NCBI GenBank assembly: GCA_003647765.1
Contig: QMNM01000120.1
Location: 1-5,670, forward strand
Direction: 5' to 3'
DNA from: Candidatus Cloacimonadota bacterium
GTDB taxonomy: Bacteria; Cloacimonadota; Cloacimonadia; JGIOTU-2; B8-G9
DNA: 5,670 nucleotides
Of this stretch, positions 82 to 5,670 are shown piece by piece (positions within the stretch are counted from its first letter, which is position 1; every line of letters starts with the position of its first letter). Both the position numbers and the translations under genes were made by a program. A model generated the notes under the pieces. That model searched no databases, was not told the origin of the DNA, and saw only the letters and a list, made by a program, of their open reading frames with translations.

Positions 82-172
82 TTTACACCGCGGAGTCGCA
101 AAGAACACAGAGAAAATAAATAATTTAATTAAATCTTTGCGTTCTCCGCGTCTCTGCGGTGAAACATAAGGA
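82..172 (+). repeat. ~92-bp imperfect-palindrome direct repeat, copy A
   Basis: Copy A is nearly identical to 575-666: by eye there are four substitutions and one single-base indel. Each copy is itself an imperfect inverted repeat. The left arm reads TTTACACCGCGGAGTCGC and so on, the right arm ends TCTCTGCGGTGAAAC, and the arms pair around an AT-rich loop (AATAAATAATTTAATTAAA). The right end contributes the SD-like AAGGA (168-172) used by the GxxExxY gene that starts at 178. Confidence 0.9.
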
Positions 173-177
173 ATATT

Positions 178-564
178 ATGAATAGAGAAGAATTAAATCT
201 GCTTTCGGAAAGGATAATTGGCTGTGCAATAGAGGTTCATAAACATTTAGGTCCAGGTTTATTGGAATCAGCATATAGAGAATGTCTCGGGTATGAGTTT
301 GATTTAGATGGAATGAATTATAAGAAAGAATATGCCATTCCTCTATTCTATAAGGGTAAACAGATAAACTGTTCATATAGAATTGACTACTTAGTTGAAA
401 ATGAAATTATTATTGAACTAAAATCCGTTGAACAAATTTTACCAATTCATAAGGCACAACTATTAACTTATCTTAAAATTACCGATAAACGATTAGGACT
501 ATTAATTAACTTTAATGTTAACTTGCTTACCAAAGGAATAGTAAGATTAGTTAATAATTTTTAA
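178..564 (+). CDS. GxxExxY protein (PD-(D/E)XK nuclease-like fold), copy 1
   Basis: This 128-residue protein belongs to the GxxExxY family, which is placed in the PD-(D/E)XK nuclease superfamily; its cellular role is not established. The naming motif is visible as GLLESAY (G27, E30, Y33), preceded by VHKHLGPG. The nuclease-like core follows: D70 in RIDYLVEN, then E80 and K82 in IIIELKSVE, then the usual H91-x2-Q94-x3-Y98 segment. All putative catalytic residues are present, so it looks intact and is near the usual family length. The ATG at 178 has AAGGA at 168-172, five bases upstream. It lies between two ~92-bp direct repeats and is clearly divergent from the second GxxExxY gene at 3696-4073. 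DNA cleavage or processing is possible but unproven. Confidence 0.9.
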   Translation: MNREELNLLSERIIGCAIEVHKHLGPGLLESAYRECLGYEFDLDGMNYKKEYAIPLFYKGKQINCSYRIDYLVENEIIIELKSVEQILPIHKAQLLTYLKITDKRLGLLINFNVNLLTKGIVRLVNNF

Positions 565-574
565 AATGTAATGA

Positions 575-666
575 TTTACACCGCAGAGTCGCAAAGAACA
601 CGGAGAAAATAAATAATTTAATTAAAATCTCTGCGTTCTCCGCGTCTTTGCGGTGAAACATAAGGA
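575..666 (+). repeat. ~92-bp imperfect-palindrome direct repeat, copy B
   Basis: Copy B of the repeat described at 82-172 begins ten bases after the GxxExxY stop codon. Its arms (ACACCGCAGAGTCGCAAAG on the left, CTCCGCGTCTTTGCGGTGAA on the right) pair imperfectly around the loop at about 608-626. A transcript through it could form a long hairpin directly upstream of the iron-sulfur protein gene. Its last bases, CATAAGGA, overlap the SD of that gene. Confidence 0.9.
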
Positions 667-668
667 GG
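662..668 (+). promoter_or_regulatory. Strong Shine-Dalgarno at the cassette edge
   Basis: AAGGAGG lies seven bases before the ATG at 676 and fixes that start. The preceding repeat ends inside this site. The same GGAGGAATAAAT context precedes the hydrogenase small-subunit-like gene (4202-4213), so this is probably the ancestral leader of the operon genes, with the cassette inserted just upstream. Confidence 0.8.
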
Positions 669-675
669 AATAAAT

Positions 676-1362
676 ATGGCAAAAGACCAAGAAATGGTTA
701 AAGTTTATATCTTAGGTGAGGGCTTTGATGTGCCTGCTAGCTCAACTATTATTACTGCAATGGAATATGCCGGATTCCAACTTACAACGGGAGTCGGCTG
801 TAGAGAAGGCTTTTGCGGCGCTTGTGCAACTCTATATCGTGAAAAAGGTGACTATAAGTTACAAGCCGGTCTCGCCTGTCAAACAGTTGTTTCTGACGGA
901 ATGTATATCGCACAAATTCCTTTCGTGCCTGCTGAAAAACCTATTTATGACATTACAAAACTAACACCGGATATTAATTCTTTTAAAACACTTTATCCCA
1001 CTGTATTCCGTTGTGTATCTTGCAATACTTGCACAAAAGCATGTCCACAAGATATTGAGGTTATGGATTATGTTCAAGCACTCATAAAAGGAGATATTGC
1101 AAAGGCAGCAGATTTATCATTTGATTGCATTCGCTGTGGACTTTGTGCTCTCAGATGCCCAGCTGAAATCGTGCAATATAATGCTGGAATTTTAGCTCGT
1201 CGCCTTACAGGAAGGTATCTTCTCAAAAAGAGTCCTGACCTTGAACTTCGCGTAAAAGAGATTGCAGAAGGAAAATATGATAAAGATATTGAAAAATTAA
1301 TGAAAACAAATAAAGAAAAAATAAAGAAATTATATTACGAAAGAGAGGTAAAACTCGGATAA
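676..1362 (+). CDS. Fumarate reductase/TfrB-type iron-sulfur electron-transfer protein
   Basis: This 228-residue soluble protein carries electrons between redox partners. Residues ~8-85 form a plant-type [2Fe-2S] ferredoxin domain, with ligands C42, C47, C50 and C68 in GCREGFCGAC...LAC. Residues ~105-175 form a two-cluster ferredoxin domain: C113, C116, C119, C123P and C151, C154, C157, C161P. Both motifs are complete CxxCxxCxxxCP, so two [4Fe-4S] clusters are predicted. Standard SdhB/FrdB instead carries one [4Fe-4S] and one [3Fe-4S]. The layout resembles the N-terminal part of archaeal thiol:fumarate reductase subunit B (TfrB), but the C-terminal cysteine-rich CCG domains are absent and the protein ends in a Lys/Glu-rich tail (about 185-228). 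The flavoprotein at 1796 is the likely partner, separated from it only by an inserted four-helix-bundle gene. The start is fixed by AAGGAGG at 662-668. The cofactors are well supported; the exact substrate system is inference. Confidence 0.9.
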   Translation: MAKDQEMVKVYILGEGFDVPASSTIITAMEYAGFQLTTGVGCREGFCGACATLYREKGDYKLQAGLACQTVVSDGMYIAQIPFVPAEKPIYDITKLTPDINSFKTLYPTVFRCVSCNTCTKACPQDIEVMDYVQALIKGDIAKAADLSFDCIRCGLCALRCPAEIVQYNAGILARRLTGRYLLKKSPDLELRVKEIAEGKYDKDIEKLMKTNKEKIKKLYYEREVKLG

Positions 1363-1399
1363 TTTTAAATTTTTAATTAATAATTTTCAATTAATAATT
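1363..1399. repeat. AT-rich left flank of the four-helix-bundle insert
   Basis: This flank is almost pure A/T and begins right after (or at) the stop codon of the iron-sulfur gene. It contains AATTAATAATT twice, at 1375-1385 and 1389-1399. The reverse complement occurs twice on the other side of the gene (1768-1778, 1775-1785), giving an inverted-repeat bracket. Low complexity weakens the case, but two 11-mers on each side are hard to dismiss. Confidence 0.6.
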
Positions 1400-1759
1400 G
1401 TGAAAACTGATAATATAATTAAAGAGAAAACCTATAATTTTGCAAGGAGAATAGTAAGACTTTATAGATTTCTAATTGAAAATAGGGAATACATTTTATC
1501 TAAACAAATTCTTCGCTCTGGCACAAGCATTGGGGCAAATGTTGAAGAAGCAATTGCTGCCCAAAGTAAAAAGGATTTTATTGCAAAAATGTATATTGCT
1601 TTAAAGGAAGCAAGAGAAACAAATTATTGGTTAAGAATATTAAACGACGAGGATTTCGTAAAAACCAGCAGAATAGAAAACTTAAAAAATGAATCTATTG
1701 AAATCATCAAAGTGATAACATCAATAATTAAATCAACTCAAAAGCAAAAAAATAATTAA
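1400..1759 (+). CDS. Four-helix-bundle protein (23S rRNA intervening-sequence type)
   Basis: This 119-residue protein belongs to the four-helix-bundle family first seen in intervening sequences of 23S rRNA genes; it is structurally related to the Avd accessory protein of diversity-generating retroelements. Family landmarks are SKQILRSGTSIGANVEEA (34-51) and KDFIAKMYIALKEARETNYW (58-77), with amphipathic helices throughout and no membrane segment. Members form small oligomeric bundles; a general function is not known. Translation probably starts at GTG 1400, since the next in-frame ATG (1589) is too late, and there is no clear SD, so expression may be weak or coupled to the gene upstream. Here the gene is not in an rRNA gene or a retroelement. 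It sits between the iron-sulfur and flavoprotein genes, bracketed by AT-rich inverted repeats, and is best read as an inserted cassette. Confidence 0.88.
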   Translation: MKTDNIIKEKTYNFARRIVRLYRFLIENREYILSKQILRSGTSIGANVEEAIAAQSKKDFIAKMYIALKEARETNYWLRILNDEDFVKTSRIENLKNESIEIIKVITSIIKSTQKQKNN

Positions 1760-1767
1760 AAATTAAA

Positions 1768-1785
1768 AATTATTAATTATTAATT
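1768..1785. repeat. AT-rich right flank of the four-helix-bundle insert
   Basis: Two overlapping copies of AATTATTAATT (1768-1778, 1775-1785) are the reverse complement of the 11-mer found twice on the left side of the gene. The flank ends directly at AGGAG (1786-1790), the SD of the flavoprotein gene, so the insert keeps the translation signal of the next gene intact. Confidence 0.6.
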
Positions 1786-1793
1786 AGGAGAGG
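1786..1793 (+). promoter_or_regulatory. Shine-Dalgarno of the flavoprotein gene
   Basis: AGGAGAGG is followed two bases later by ATG at 1796. The AGGAG core is five bases from the start, which supports this start over internal methionines. The AT-rich insert flank stops at its first base. Confidence 0.75.
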
Positions 1794-1795
1794 TT

Positions 1796-3463
1796 ATGTA
1801 TCCAGAATATATGCAAGAATCAATAAGAAATGTTGAGAAGACAAGACCTGCAAGATTAAAATTAGCAAAGTCAGGAAAGCAATTATTTCCTCGTATGTCA
1901 GCACAAGAAAGGGATGTAGTTCTAAACAAATTTCATCCAGACTACAAACCAGAGGCAAGAAGAGAAATCAGAATAGGTCCAAATAAGGGAGAAAGAATAA
2001 CAACAAAAGTTGCTGAACTGCTTGAAACTTTTTCAAGAATCAATCCAGCAGATTTTGATTTAGACCATCCAGATTATGAGACAGATGTGTTGGTAATAGG
2101 TGCTGGCTCTGCTGGATTTTCGGCTTCAATTCTTGCGGCTGAAAATGGTGCAAATGTAATTCTTGTTACTAAACTCAGGATTGGTGATTCAAATTCAATG
2201 ATGGCTCAAGGTGGCATTCAAGCTGCGGTCAGACCTGACGATTCTCCTGTTCTACATTATTTAGATGTTATTGGCGGGGGGCATTTTGATAATAAACCTG
2301 AATTGGCAAAAGCATTGGTTTGTGATGCTCCAGATGCAATAAAATGGCTTCAAGACCTGGGCGTTATGTTTGATAGAAATCCTGATGGAACAATGAAGAC
2401 AAAATCTGGTGGGGGAACTTGCAGACCACGAATGCATTCTGCCAGAGACTACACTGGTGCAGCAATCTGCAGAACTCTGCGTGATGAAGTTCAAAATAGA
2501 CCTGATAAGATTAAAATCCTTGAACATCAACCTGCTGTGGAACTAATAAAAGATAGTAATGGACGAGTCGCAGGTGCAGTTCTTTATCATCTTGAAAATA
2601 AAGAATATTTTACTATTAAAGCCAAAGCTACAATCCTTTCTACAGGTGGATTTGGCAGACTGCACATACAGGGATTTGAAACCACTAATCATTACGGTGC
2701 TACAGCAGATGGTCTGGTAATGGGCTATAGGGCTGGAGCAAACTTGTTATATATGGATTCTGTTCAGTATCATCCAACTGGAGCTGTGTATCCGCTGCAA
2801 ATCGTTGGATTCTTATGCACAGAAAAATTGCGAGGAATGGGTGCCCAACCTGTAAATAAAAATGGCGAACTCTTTGTATATCCACTTGAACCCCGTGATA
2901 TAGAGGCATCAGCTTTTATAAGAGAATGCACAGAGAGAGGAAATGGAATAAAAACTCCTGCTGGAAATCTCGGCATATGGCTGGATACTCCACTTATTGA
3001 ACAAATCAATGGTGCAGGAGCAATTAAACAAAATCTGCCTGCAATGTTAAGACAGTTTGGTCGGTTTGATGTGGACATAACAAAAGAGCCGATGCTCGTT
3101 TATCCTACTTTGCACTATCAGAATGGGGGATTAGAAATAAACGACCATTGCGAAACAAAGCTGCCTGGACTTTATGTGGCTGGCGAGGCTTCTGGCGGCG
3201 TGCATGGTAGAAATCGTTTGATGGGTAACTCTCAACTTGACCTTATCGTATTTGGCAGAAGAGCAGGTAGATACGCAGCAGAATATGCAAAAGGTGCAAA
3301 ACTTGGCAAATTGAATTTAGACCATGTCTACGAATATGAAAAAGAAGTTGAAAAACTTGGTATAGATAGGAAAAAGATTTCTCCAATGGTTCTGCCTGAT
3401 TATATTCCAGAAGCAGTAAAGAAGCGTCAGTATACCACACACTACGAAGGAACGCTTAGATAA
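1796..3463 (+). CDS. FAD-binding fumarate reductase-type flavoprotein (FrdA/TfrA/NadB superfamily)
   Basis: This 555-residue soluble flavoprotein probably reduces fumarate, or oxidises a related dicarboxylate, using electrons from the iron-sulfur protein upstream. A ~95-residue N-terminal extension precedes the Rossmann motif GAGSAG (102-107). Other superfamily signatures follow: SMMAQGGIQAA (134-144), TADGLVMGYRAGA (303-315), YHPTG (325-329), the EPRD segment with R367 (aligned by eye with the catalytic Arg of FrdA), HYQNGG with H440, and the C-terminal FAD segment LYVAGEASGG...HGRNRLMGNS (459-479). The position of the His that binds FAD covalently in SdhA/FrdA is Asn here (N133), as in L-aspartate oxidase, so FAD should be non-covalent. 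There is no signal peptide or anchor. Pairing with a two-[4Fe-4S] protein and a hydrogenase-type subunit favours a Tfr-like soluble fumarate reductase over NadB, which is usually encoded with NadA/NadC. The precise substrate is unproven. Confidence 0.88.
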   Translation: MYPEYMQESIRNVEKTRPARLKLAKSGKQLFPRMSAQERDVVLNKFHPDYKPEARREIRIGPNKGERITTKVAELLETFSRINPADFDLDHPDYETDVLVIGAGSAGFSASILAAENGANVILVTKLRIGDSNSMMAQGGIQAAVRPDDSPVLHYLDVIGGGHFDNKPELAKALVCDAPDAIKWLQDLGVMFDRNPDGTMKTKSGGGTCRPRMHSARDYTGAAICRTLRDEVQNRPDKIKILEHQPAVELIKDSNGRVAGAVLYHLENKEYFTIKAKATILSTGGFGRLHIQGFETTNHYGATADGLVMGYRAGANLLYMDSVQYHPTGAVYPLQIVGFLCTEKLRGMGAQPVNKNGELFVYPLEPRDIEASAFIRECTERGNGIKTPAGNLGIWLDTPLIEQINGAGAIKQNLPAMLRQFGRFDVDITKEPMLVYPTLHYQNGGLEINDHCETKLPGLYVAGEASGGVHGRNRLMGNSQLDLIVFGRRAGRYAAEYAKGAKLGKLNLDHVYEYEKEVEKLGIDRKKISPMVLPDYIPEAVKKRQYTTHYEGTLR

Positions 3464-3511
3464 TTAACCATGAATTAACCATGAATTAACCACGAATTAA
3501 CACGAATTAAC
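3462..3511 (+). repeat. Short tandem repeat at the left edge of the second GxxExxY cassette
   Basis: Five near-identical units follow each other: AATTAACC (3462-3469), ATGAATTAACC twice (3470-3480, 3481-3491), then ACGAATTAAC twice (3492-3501, 3502-3511). The first unit overlaps the stop codon of the flavoprotein, so the insertion junction is at or inside the end of that gene. Confidence 0.85.
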
Positions 3512-3516
3512 ACAAA
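3486..3516 (+). repeat. Left terminal inverted repeat of cassette 2
   Basis: The sequence begins TTAACCACGAATTAACACG and ends AATTAACACAAA. Its reverse complement matches 4160-4189 with two substitutions and a one-base gap near the outer end. Matching over about 30 bases across 640 bases of intervening sequence is well beyond chance, even for AT-rich DNA. Confidence 0.85.
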
Positions 3517-3550
3517 TGATAATGAAACATACATGTCCTTGATACCTCGG

Positions 3551-3685
3551 GGACACAAAGGAGTATGAAAATGGCAAGTAAGCATTCCCAGGCTGGGGCT
3601 TCTGTCTCGGCTTGGCCGAGCCAAGACGGATGAGAATGAGAGTTTATATTTATTTTCTTTGTGTCTTTGTGACTTTGTGGTGAAA
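3551..3685 (+). repeat. Hairpin repeat element, copy 1 (REP/MITE-like)
   Basis: The left part, ACACAAAGGAGTATGAAAAT and then GCATTCCCA, and the right part, TTTATTTTCTTTGTGTCTTTGTG, recur in the element at 5309-5400. CACAAAG-type sequence on the left and CTTTGTG on the right make the outer arms inverted. The centre differs from the other copy: here 3604-3627 is a 24-base near-palindrome around GGCTTGGCCGAGCC, with one mismatch and one T-G pair. The right end, CTTTGTGGTGAAA, directly precedes the GxxExxY gene. It is non-coding as far as I can see. Confidence 0.75.
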
Positions 3686-3695
3686 GGATTTTCAG

Positions 3696-4073
3696 ATGAA
3701 AAAGAACAAGATCTTGTATAAAGAGTTGTCTTATGAAATTATTGGGCTTGCAATGAAAGTACATACTATACTTGGGCCAGGTTTTTTAGAAAAGGTTTAT
3801 GAAAATGCATTAATGGTTTTATTCGGAAAAGAAGGAATTAAAGCAGTCCAGCAGGCTCCAATAAAAGTAAAATTTGAAAATGAGATAGTCGGTAATTATT
3901 ATGCTGATATTTTAATAGAGAATAAGATTATCTTAGAATTGAAAACTGTAGAAAAAATTACAGATATACACCGAGCACAGGCACTAAATTATTTAAAAGC
4001 CACTGGTCTAAAGTTGGCAATTATCTTGAATTTTGATGCTAAAAGTCTTGAATATGAAAGACTTGTTTTGTAG
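3696..4073 (+). CDS. GxxExxY protein (PD-(D/E)XK nuclease-like fold), copy 2
   Basis: This 125-residue protein belongs to the same family as the product of 178-564. The naming motif is GFLEKVY (G29, E32, Y35) after VHTILGPG. The nuclease-like residues are D71 in ADILIEN, E81 and K83 in ILELKTVE, and H92/Q95/Y99 in IHRAQALNYL. All are retained, so the gene appears intact. Outside the motifs the two proteins differ widely, in a manner expected of separate acquisitions rather than a recent local duplication. The ATG at 3696 is preceded by GAAAGGA (3682-3688), a modest SD. The leader CTTTGTGGTGAAA before it parallels the CTCTGCGGTGAAA before the first copy. Its biochemical role is unknown. Confidence 0.9.
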   Translation: MKKNKILYKELSYEIIGLAMKVHTILGPGFLEKVYENALMVLFGKEGIKAVQQAPIKVKFENEIVGNYYADILIENKIILELKTVEKITDIHRAQALNYLKATGLKLAIILNFDAKSLEYERLVL

Positions 4074-4123
4074 TAATACTTTATAAAAAATTATTACATA
4101 TTTTACATTATTAAAGTAATATT

Positions 4124-4191
4124 ATTCGTATTAATTCGTGGTAAAAAAATAAAATATAATTTGTGAAAATTCGTGTTAATTCGTGGTAAAA
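4124..4191 (-). repeat. Right terminal inverted repeat of cassette 2, with a duplicated inner copy
   Basis: ATTCGTGTTAATTCGTGGTAA (about 4169-4189, preceded by TTTGTGAA) is the inverted partner of 3486-3516. A second copy, TTCGTATTAATTCGTGGTAA, lies just inside it at 4125-4144. Both are followed by A-rich sequence. The outer copy ends about a dozen bases before the SD of the next gene. Confidence 0.8.
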
Positions 4192-4201
4192 TAAGTTTTA
4201 C

Positions 4202-4206
4202 GGAGG
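4202..4206 (+). promoter_or_regulatory. Shine-Dalgarno of the hydrogenase small-subunit-like gene
   Basis: GGAGG lies five bases before the ATG at 4212, in the context GGAGGAATAA. The same context precedes the iron-sulfur gene at 676. This decides the start and marks the likely edge of the original operon sequence to the right of cassette 2. Confidence 0.8.
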
Positions 4207-4211
4207 AATAA

Positions 4212-5213
4212 ATGGCAAAACCTAAAGTCGCTTTTTATTGGTGTGCCTCGTGTGGTGGATGTGAAGAAGCCATAATTGACTTAAATGAAGATATACTTAA
4301 AGTAGCTGATTTAGTTAATATCGTCTTCTGGCCCTGTGCTATGGATTTCAAATACGCTGATGTAAGAAAAATGAAAAAAGATGAAATAGATGTAACATTC
4401 ATAAATGGAGCTATTCGCACAGACGAACAAGAAGAAATGGCAAAACTGCTAAGAGAAAAATCAAAGATAATTGTATCTTATGGAGCTTGTTCACAACTTG
4501 GTGGAATTCCTGGGTTAGCTAATTTCTGGGATAGAGAAACCATATTTAATTCTTCGTATGGCAAGAATTGTCCATCAATTGATAATCCAAAGGGAATAAC
4601 TCCTCAGACAGTTTCAAAAGTGCCTGAAGGGGAATTAACTTTACCTGCCTTTCATAACACAGTAAAGACTACCGACCAGGTGATTGATGTGGATTATTAT
4701 CTCCCAGGTTGCTCTCCTGCACCTTATTTAACAATGAAAGCAATCAATACAATTTTGTCAGGTGATTTACCTTCAAAAGGTACAGTCCTTTCTCCAAATA
4801 AAGCCTTATGTGAAACTTGCTCTCTTAATGAAACCAAGCCTGAAAAATTATCAATAGAAAAGATAAATAGGATTTCTCTTGTTGAAGCAGACCCGGAAAA
4901 ATGCTTTCTTGCGCAAGGGATTATTTGTATGGGACCCGTAACTCGCTCTGGATGCAGTGAGGAGGGAGATGGTAGGTGTATTAAAGCTAATATGCCCTGT
5001 CGCGGATGTTACGGACCAACATCTGAGGTAAAAGATGTGGGCGCAAAGATGACTTCTGCCCTTGCATCAATCATTGGACTTGAAGGTGAAGAAAATATGA
5101 GCGAGGAAAAAGTAAAAAAACTGATGTCCCAAGTTGTTGACCCAGCCGGGACTTTCTATCGTTTTTCTATGCCAAAATCATTGTTGATGAGGAAAATGAA
5201 GGATAAACATTGA
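4212..5213 (+). CDS. [NiFe] hydrogenase small-subunit-like oxidoreductase (MvhG/group 3 type)
   Basis: This 333-residue soluble iron-sulfur protein belongs to the family shared by [NiFe] hydrogenase small subunits and the 20-kDa subunit of complex I. The proximal-cluster pattern is visible: WCASCGGCEEA (C11, C14, C17), GACSQLGG (C93) and PGCSP (C167). A C-terminal ferredoxin-like part with further clusters follows: C200 and C203, then C231-FLAQGIIC-C239-MGP, C248, C256, and PCRGCYGP (C263, C266). That last block is characteristic of F420-non-reducing hydrogenase gamma subunits (MvhG), which work with a large NiFe subunit and pass electrons to heterodisulfide reductase-type partners. There is no twin-arginine signal, which fits a cytoplasmic enzyme. 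The large subunit is not in the window, so whether an active NiFe site accompanies it is open. Together with the TfrA/TfrB-like genes it suggests hydrogen- or thiol-linked fumarate chemistry. Confidence 0.88.
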   Translation: MAKPKVAFYWCASCGGCEEAIIDLNEDILKVADLVNIVFWPCAMDFKYADVRKMKKDEIDVTFINGAIRTDEQEEMAKLLREKSKIIVSYGACSQLGGIPGLANFWDRETIFNSSYGKNCPSIDNPKGITPQTVSKVPEGELTLPAFHNTVKTTDQVIDVDYYLPGCSPAPYLTMKAINTILSGDLPSKGTVLSPNKALCETCSLNETKPEKLSIEKINRISLVEADPEKCFLAQGIICMGPVTRSGCSEEGDGRCIKANMPCRGCYGPTSEVKDVGAKMTSALASIIGLEGEENMSEEKVKKLMSQVVDPAGTFYRFSMPKSLLMRKMKDKH

Positions 5214-5214
5214 C

Positions 5215-5260
5215 GGAAGGAATATTAATGTCCCGAAAACAAGTCAGGATACCCAATTAA
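5215..5260 (+). pseudogene. Possible broken start of the next operon gene
   Basis: GGAAGG (5215-5220) followed by ATG at 5228 looks like a normal gene start two bases after the hydrogenase-like stop, but the frame ends after MSRKQVRIPN (TAA 5258-5260). Another frame is open across 5200-5361 and reads RFNPSEIGRNFTRRTKEYEN in the middle, with no good start of its own. A frameshift joining the two, followed by interruption by the hairpin repeat at 5309, would explain both. The text faintly resembles the N-terminus of HdrC-like proteins, but no cysteine motif is left to confirm this. It could also be chance. Confidence 0.3.
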
Positions 5261-5281
5261 ATAGGAAAAGATTTAACCCAA

Positions 5282-5303
5282 GTGAAATAGGAAGAAATTT
5301 CAC
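5282..5303 (+). repeat. Small hairpin
   Basis: GTGAAAT (5282-5288) and ATTTCAC (5297-5303) form a seven-base stem with an eight-base loop at the left edge of the second hairpin element. It may be a degraded part of that element's outer arm, which would be expected to carry a TTTCACC-type end. Confidence 0.4.
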
Positions 5304-5308
5304 AAGGC

Positions 5309-5400
5309 GGACAAAGGAGTATGAAAATTCAGGCATTCCCAAGCTCTATCTTGGGAATGCCTGAATTTGTTTATTTCTTTTCTTTGTGTCTTTGTGGTTA
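5309..5400 (+). repeat. Hairpin repeat element, copy 2 (REP/MITE-like)
   Basis: This element shares ACAAAGGAGTATGAAAAT and GCATTCCCA on the left, and TTTCTTTGTGTCTTTGTG on the right, with the copy at 3551-3685. The outer arms are imperfectly inverted. The centre here is a perfect hairpin (5325-5368), unlike the GC-rich palindrome of copy 1. No coding potential is convincing. Confidence 0.75.
5325..5368 (+). terminator. Perfect 19-bp-stem hairpin, possible terminator
   Basis: AAATTCAGGCATTCCCAAG (5325-5343) and its exact complement (5350-5368) are separated by the six-base loop CTCTAT. A T-rich run follows (GTTTATTTCTTTTC). In the transcript this would be a very stable hairpin located ~110 bases after the hydrogenase-like gene, so it could end or stabilise the message. 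Because it is the core of a dispersed repeat, termination may be a side effect rather than its purpose. Confidence 0.55.
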
Positions 5401-5491
5401 GAAAGAATTGGAAAAAATAGTAAGTCCATTGGATAGGATGAAGGAAAGGAGTGAAATTGACAAAGAAAAATAATTGGCACACAAAAGGATG

Positions 5492-5517
5492 TATATCCGA
5501 AGTATACTTCGGATATA
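5492..5517. repeat. Perfect 26-bp palindrome
   Basis: TATATCCGAAGTA is followed immediately by its exact reverse complement TACTTCGGATATA, with no spacer. It shares the outer TATATCCG...CGGATATA with the palindrome at 5533-5557. It could be a protein-binding or recombination site, or part of another small repeat. Confidence 0.9.
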
Positions 5518-5532
5518 ACACCATATTGGTTA

Positions 5533-5557
5533 TATATCCGCATTAATTGCGGATATA
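5533..5557. repeat. Related palindrome with 10-bp arms
   Basis: TATATCCGCA (5533-5542) and TGCGGATATA (5548-5557) flank a five-base TTAAT spacer. It is a sibling of the palindrome at 5492-5517, with centres about 40 bases apart. Confidence 0.9.
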
Positions 5558-5670
5558 AATAAGTTATACGACATTCCGCCCGCCTCTAAAAGAACTATTT
5601 TTGAAGGGTTTTCGTGGCAAAGAGAAAACTTTTTAAATACGTGTATGTATTCAGCAATACAGGTAAATAA

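Follow-up and report, generated by a model that had tools for sequence, protein, structure and literature searches.

The gaps between the genes of an electron-transfer operon on a 5670-base contig of a Candidatus Cloacimonadota bacterium (C146 of assembly G000, which comprises 360 contigs; this whole contig is the window referred to throughout) are filled with small genes bordered by repeats, and the pattern extends upstream onto a second contig, C114. Rather than random debris or ordinary genes of the operon, these inserts represent a unit of arm, open reading frame (ORF) and arm that occurs repeatedly. Probably, they are minimal mobile elements of about 0.4–0.6 kb, each with a single small gene set between a left arm and a right arm of reverse-complementary sequence. 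They fall into two families. GxxExxY units encode a Cas4-like predicted nuclease and have arms of CRCNRAG type that recur across phyla; four-helix-bundle (4HB) units share the anatomy of the intervening sequences (IVSs) of 23S rRNA and have arms private to the element.

The arm-ORF-arm unit

The extent of the unit can be read from two GxxExxY copies at unrelated junctions (loci L079 and L083), which are 90% identical over 472 bp comprising the left arm, the ORF and the right arm, while BLAST between the two loci returned no further match outside this 472-bp unit. Because the match runs from arm to arm and not beyond, the arms are part of the mobile unit. This pair, together with the arm repeat, could be used directly as substrate in assays of binding or cleavage. 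Complementary flanks are widespread in the order to which the window belongs: flank complementarity lies above the 99th percentile of shuffles for 49% of 72 elements. Among 222 control genes the proportion is 2.7%, and with flanks swapped it is 4.5%.

The two families differ in their arms. We surveyed 80 GxxExxY loci from many phyla, ranging from Bacteroidota to methanogens and including a Methanothrix and a Methanosarcinales archaeon. In their arms the motif CRCNRAG is repeated every 8–10 nt, with a mode of 9. At least two such units are present in 58% of the upstream flanks, in 78% of those downstream, and on both sides of the gene in 51% of cases; the corresponding figures for control genes in the same loci are 3%, 1% and 0%. 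The 4HB flanks are devoid of CRCNRAG (0/43 have two units); each 4HB element carries a short tandem repeat of its own (GTAGAGC, AGTGGC, GTTGGAAA and GGTCGAGA are examples) with the inverse complement downstream. Different 4HB elements have arms in common almost only if their proteins resemble each other and they stand next to the same genes; such sharing is by descent, and the arms are otherwise private to each element. At the junction read from flanking peptides as thiC–thiD, a 4HB unit with related GTTNGAAAG arms sits in five genomes (L110, L107, L097, L115 and L098), a natural series for arm evolution.

The window holds three such genes, all on the plus strand. GxxExxY1 (178–564) is bracketed not by simple arms but by two complete palindromic hairpin elements (about 86–165 and 575–660). 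The first has CRCNRAG-type units at 89, 97 and 106 on the plus strand, an AT-rich loop, and units at 135, 144 and 152 on the minus strand; the second is in direct orientation relative to it, and the repeats 77–133 and 570–626 on either side of the gene are 95% identical. The right half of a further element of this kind opens the contig (1–47, three reverse units at 17, 26 and 34). The gene of the second insert, 4HB1 (1400–1759), lies between arms at 1368–1399 and 1754–1785, an inverted repeat of 32 nt with 84% complementarity; the left arm begins a few nucleotides past the stop codon of the preceding iron-sulphur gene, and the right arm stops just short of the downstream ribosome-binding site. 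GxxExxY2 (3696–4073) has a left arm at 3464–3521, with CACGAAT/CACAAAT units at 3491, 3501 and 3511 preceded by an 11-nt tandem repeat, and a right arm at 4120–4190, with reverse units at 4134, 4159, 4169 and 4179; within these arms, 3486–3521 and 4155–4190 form an inverted repeat of 36 nt (89% complementary). Its left flank contains an ORF-less hairpin element (3541–3682; terminal reverse CACAAAG units at 3657, 3665 and 3673), of which a second copy is found at 5296–5400, with a stem at 5313–5343/5350–5380 and reverse units at 5382 and 5390. The ORF-less palindromes at 86–165, 575–660 and 5296–5400 have terminal inverted repeats and no transposase gene, as do miniature inverted-repeat transposable elements (MITEs).

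The flanking repeats to which a preliminary description of the window pointed are real; they comprise the two inverted repeats, the direct repeats and the hairpin (5313–5380) that follows the last operon gene at 5213. The same description assigned a repeat type to each gap, which does not hold: the arms of both GxxExxY copies are variants of one unit (CRCNRAG, in copy 2 CACGAAT), nor is the hairpin past 5213 a type of its own, another copy being situated in the left flank of GxxExxY2. RNA folding predicts that the two arms of GxxExxY2 pair with each other over the ORF (z −4.7) and that GxxExxY1 stands between two separate strong hairpins (z −8.2). No known RNA families and no rRNA were found in the window. 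Past the last hairpin element, two different short palindromes, ATATCCGAAGTATACTTCGGATAT and then ATATCCGCATTAATTGCGGATAT, stand in tandem (5486–5562).

Filled, decayed and empty gaps

The backbone of the window is made up of a TfrB/HdrC-like iron-sulphur (FeS) subunit (676–1362), a TfrA/FrdA-like flavoprotein (FAD; 1796–3463) and a VhuG/MvhG-like subunit (4212–5213), all on the plus strand. That these three genes form an operon, as the preliminary description had it, is confirmed by synteny, the order hdrA'-mvhD-FeS-FAD-vhuG being kept in relatives from the order and the class. Contig C114 carries hdrA, hdrA' and mvhD, the inserts GxxExxY3 and 4HB2 and more copies of the hairpin; by synteny it appears to be the upstream half of the operon, and since the hairpin repeat at its end matches the start of C146, we infer that the two contigs are adjacent in the genome. 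The full order, spread across both contigs, is hdrA-hdrA'-mvhD-tfrB-like-tfrA-like-vhuG-like. The foreign-looking material first noted in the window therefore continues upstream. Once joined, the operon contains three GxxExxY and two 4HB genes, five in all, each flanked by complementary repeats, and further gap material consists of several hairpins that lack an ORF.

Comparison with relatives supports the proposal that this material was inserted. The FeS–FAD gap, 436 nt here with 4HB1, measures 14–49 nt in most relatives, and the HdrA2–MvhD gap, 514 nt here with 4HB2, measures 19–49 nt. Neither 4HB gene nor GxxExxY1 was found in the corresponding gaps of relatives, and two further junctions occur in intact, decayed and empty states across species of one genus. 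Sharing of the small genes between the same gaps of related genomes had been named beforehand as the sign of stable operon members. It was seen for GxxExxY2, an orthologue of which fills the corresponding gap of G006 (72% amino acid identity, arm type alike), and for GxxExxY3, which also lies upstream of hdrA in G002 (93–95% identity); it was not seen for 4HB1, 4HB2 and GxxExxY1. Decayed remnants of GxxExxY2, significant against shuffles, remain in G009, G010 and G011. A candidate remnant in G004 was rejected because its score was not above shuffles, as was a 4HB relic in the FeS–FAD gap of G002 (p = 0.22).

Because GxxExxY2 is shared with G006 and GxxExxY3 with G002 (dN/dS 0.13), some inserts are old, selected residents. 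The small genes compared have dN/dS values of 0.12–0.13, and HdrA1, FeS and FAD of 0.07–0.09; the value for vhuG against G002 was discarded, as it conflicts with 95% amino acid identity and looks like a codon misalignment. Purifying selection appears to act on the small proteins, which would make them long-lived residents and not just tolerated debris. As far as can be read from the compared sequences, units enter, can persist under selection, and then decay.

Two gaps in relatives have contents of their own. The FAD–vhuG gap of G002 (L037, 7800–8240) contains a broken 4HB gene split by a small element with the ends CCCCGTTAGATAA and TTATCTAACGGGG. The FeS–FAD gap of G044 (L045 as oriented, 5903–6234) holds, in place of a small gene, a non-coding repeat of ~77 bp in about four tandem copies.

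Placement, copy number and rival explanations

Copy counts call for a suitable reference genome. The proteins of C146 and C114 are 91.6–94.6% identical to those of G002, a member of another family, whereas among the remaining reciprocal best hits of the G000–G002 pair the median identity is 53.5% and the maximum 76%; the GC content is 35.5% for the two contigs vs about 32% for the G000 bin. The two contigs are either misbinned or recently acquired horizontally from a G002-like organism. As compositional and phylogenetic outliers they make the counts in their own assembly (three 4HB and four GxxExxY matches in G000) misleading, and a clustering test within G000 (5/7 copies on two contigs) was discarded as invalid for this reason. 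G002 is therefore the correct yardstick; it has 25 4HB and 8 GxxExxY matches.

The common orientation of inserts and operon, claimed from the window, was found throughout the order: 64 of 68 elements are flanked by two genes of their own orientation, none opposes its upstream gene, and at co-directional junctions all 64 elements are oriented with the operon (random probability 5e-20). Ordinary genes of the order are in the same/same arrangement in 216 of 259 cases, over which the excess of the elements is modest (p = 0.03). Across phyla, 46 of 57 elements are co-directional (46 vs 11; p = 2e-6 against random), a bias no different from that of ordinary genes (p = 0.3). Since ordinary genes are nearly as co-directional, targeting and selection for harmless sites are inseparable here. 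In 23 of 34 cases the distance from the preceding stop codon to the start of the arm is 4–30 nt, and for 4HB arms 13 of 20 starts fall between −6 and +12 relative to the stop. Some arms are read as protein. Thus, mvhD (L055, 346–420, minus strand) ends in ...TENTSTAESQRTQRK, its tail TAESQRTQRK being read from the repeat arm, and the ends differ in relatives; in L079, L083 and L082 translation of the GxxExxY gene appears to begin ahead of the left arm, which is then read as an N-terminal tail (TTENTESTEK), as the ~9-nt spacing of the units would permit. Taken together, the placement seen in these sequences fits tolerated insertion into spacers and is no proof of targeting.

The alternative that survives best is compatible with mobile elements. 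It holds that the density is chance survival in an element-rich genome, in which insertion is random and selection spares only sense-oriented inserts at junctions. With 33 matches in the 1.9 Mb of G002, and ordinary genes being mostly co-directional as well (216/259), we regard this as quite possible, although five copies in ~12 kb have a Poisson probability of 3e-6 per window at the G002 rate (for a window picked post hoc) and arms often begin a few nucleotides past a stop codon.

We consider it unlikely that the small genes are ordinary, stable parts of the operon, encoding for instance accessory proteins for RNA binding or repair, and that the repeats are hairpins for mRNA processing or stability. 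The shared positions of GxxExxY2 and GxxExxY3, the dN/dS values of 0.12–0.13 and the thiC-4HB-thiD junction, filled in five genomes, would be expected of such genes. This explanation is weakened by the empty gaps, the operon existing in relatives without 4HB1, 4HB2 and GxxExxY1, by the occurrence of the families at unrelated junctions (up to 46 matches in one genome, the highest count, with 33 4HB and 13 GxxExxY in G008), and by the 472-bp unit repeated at two different junctions. Less likely still, the arms would be elements of the MITE type or of the repetitive extragenic palindromic (REP) type, moved by an unrelated transposase, and the genes passengers captured between copies in a composite, as the two complete palindromes in direct orientation around GxxExxY1 and the ORF-less copies might suggest; a grammar tied to GxxExxY across phyla (51% at both ends vs 0% of controls) and absent from 4HB flanks (0/43) is unexpected under passive capture.

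Several observations weigh against minimal mobile elements. No mobilisation was observed, and the empty sites in relatives are too diverged for a target-site duplication to be read. By the strict score, clear inverted arms are missing from half of the elements. Many 4HB units persist, with arms in common, at one and the same junction in different genera, so that most copies are inherited and not freshly inserted, and no pair of 4HB genes with more than 75% identity has different neighbours. Lastly, the RNA fold of 4HB1 closes with its arms but barely beats shuffles (z −1.7).

Encoded proteins and known systems

The gene families named in the preliminary description are confirmed by profiles. 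The GxxExxY copies score 148 and 136.8 bits with the GxxExxY profile (TIGR04256/PF13366; curated cut-off 35), and 4HB1 scores 95.6 bits with the profile of the S23p family of four-helix-bundle 23S rRNA IVS proteins (PF05635/TIGR02436; cut-off 33.8). GxxExxY1 retains E30, D70, E80-x-K82 and Q94-xxx-Y98, and E30, D70, E80, K82, Q94 and Y98 are invariant in 36 sequences from many phyla. Its structural model (pLDDT 95) has as its best match the Cas4 nuclease SSO0001 (Z 9.6, rmsd 3.0, 99 aligned residues), followed in Foldseek by lambda exonuclease; a sequence search for solved structures returned none that was convincing. In its residues and modelled fold, GxxExxY1 conforms to the Cas4/lambda-exonuclease branch of PD-(D/E)XK proteins and is a predicted nuclease. 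A role in a defence system was set aside, the only matches being weak ones to Cas4 and to restriction enzymes. Carriage by phages or plasmids was also rejected (0 of 50,697 phages and 8 of 72,556 plasmids).

These features suggest how such an element might live. A unit would settle in the short spacer past a stop codon, oriented with transcription, where it breaks no cistron and could be expressed from the host operon; it would thus be a minimal selfish element carried on the host transcript and dependent on it for expression. The product may act on its own arms as a DNA or RNA hairpin, the GxxExxY nuclease in homing or repair-coupled insertion and the 4HB protein by binding an RNA hairpin, and the inserts may be subject to RNA processing within the host transcript. 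The gene could remain under selection for long, and later decay of the unit would leave arms or ORF-less hairpins.

A bolder proposal we put forward tentatively. GxxExxY genes with CRCNRAG arms might constitute an undescribed class of minimal mobile element of about 470 bp, present in many bacterial phyla and in methanogens, in which the Cas4-like nuclease would recognise the arms of its own element and units would place themselves just past the stop codons of transcribed operons; 4HB elements might then form a parallel class, with the 23S rRNA IVSs as its branch residing in rRNA. If so, two very common annotations of unknown function, GxxExxY protein and four helix bundle protein, would denote genes carried by small mobile elements whose ends are defined, repeats scattered across many genomes would acquire a testable role, an explanation would be at hand for unusual tails (TAESQRTQRK, for instance) of proteins that are otherwise conserved, and operon inserts would be linked to the long-unexplained IVSs of 23S rRNA. 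In the literature searched, which covered few subscription papers, no description of an arm-ORF-arm unit inserted in operons was found, the arm sequences appeared in none, and mentions of GxxExxY were unrelated to operon inserts; in the parts of papers available for the domain accessions, the mentions were not about operon inserts.

Among known systems, MITEs and REP-type repeats resemble the present units in their short inverted-repeat units, ORF-less copies and intergenic location, but here most units include a gene of a given family, with which the arm grammar is associated. Homing endonuclease elements, whether intron-encoded or free-standing, likewise have a small nuclease gene as sole cargo, tolerated sites and a cycle of gain, decay and loss. 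They differ from the present units, in which there is no intron or intein, the fold is Cas4/lambda-exonuclease-like and the borders are repeat arms. The S23p four-helix bundle is homologous to Avd of diversity-generating retroelements (PMC10053308); 4HB1, however, matches bAvd weakly, below the cut-off, and the window has no reverse transcriptase gene.

The 23S rRNA IVSs bear a likeness to the 4HB units. In Coxiella burnetii, the IVS in helix 45 has an S23p ORF, 28-bp complementary ends and heptamer tandem repeats, and is excised by RNase III (PMC4990558). A PF05635 protein, a length of about 0.4 kb, complementary ends, tandem repeats by the ORF and decaying ORFs are common to both (PMC4990558), and the closing stem of an IVS has its counterpart in the 32-nt arms of 4HB1 (84% complementary; fold z −1.7). 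The difference lies in the site and the ends: 4HB1 resides between tfrB-like and tfrA-like genes rather than in 23S rRNA, and its arms are specific to the element.

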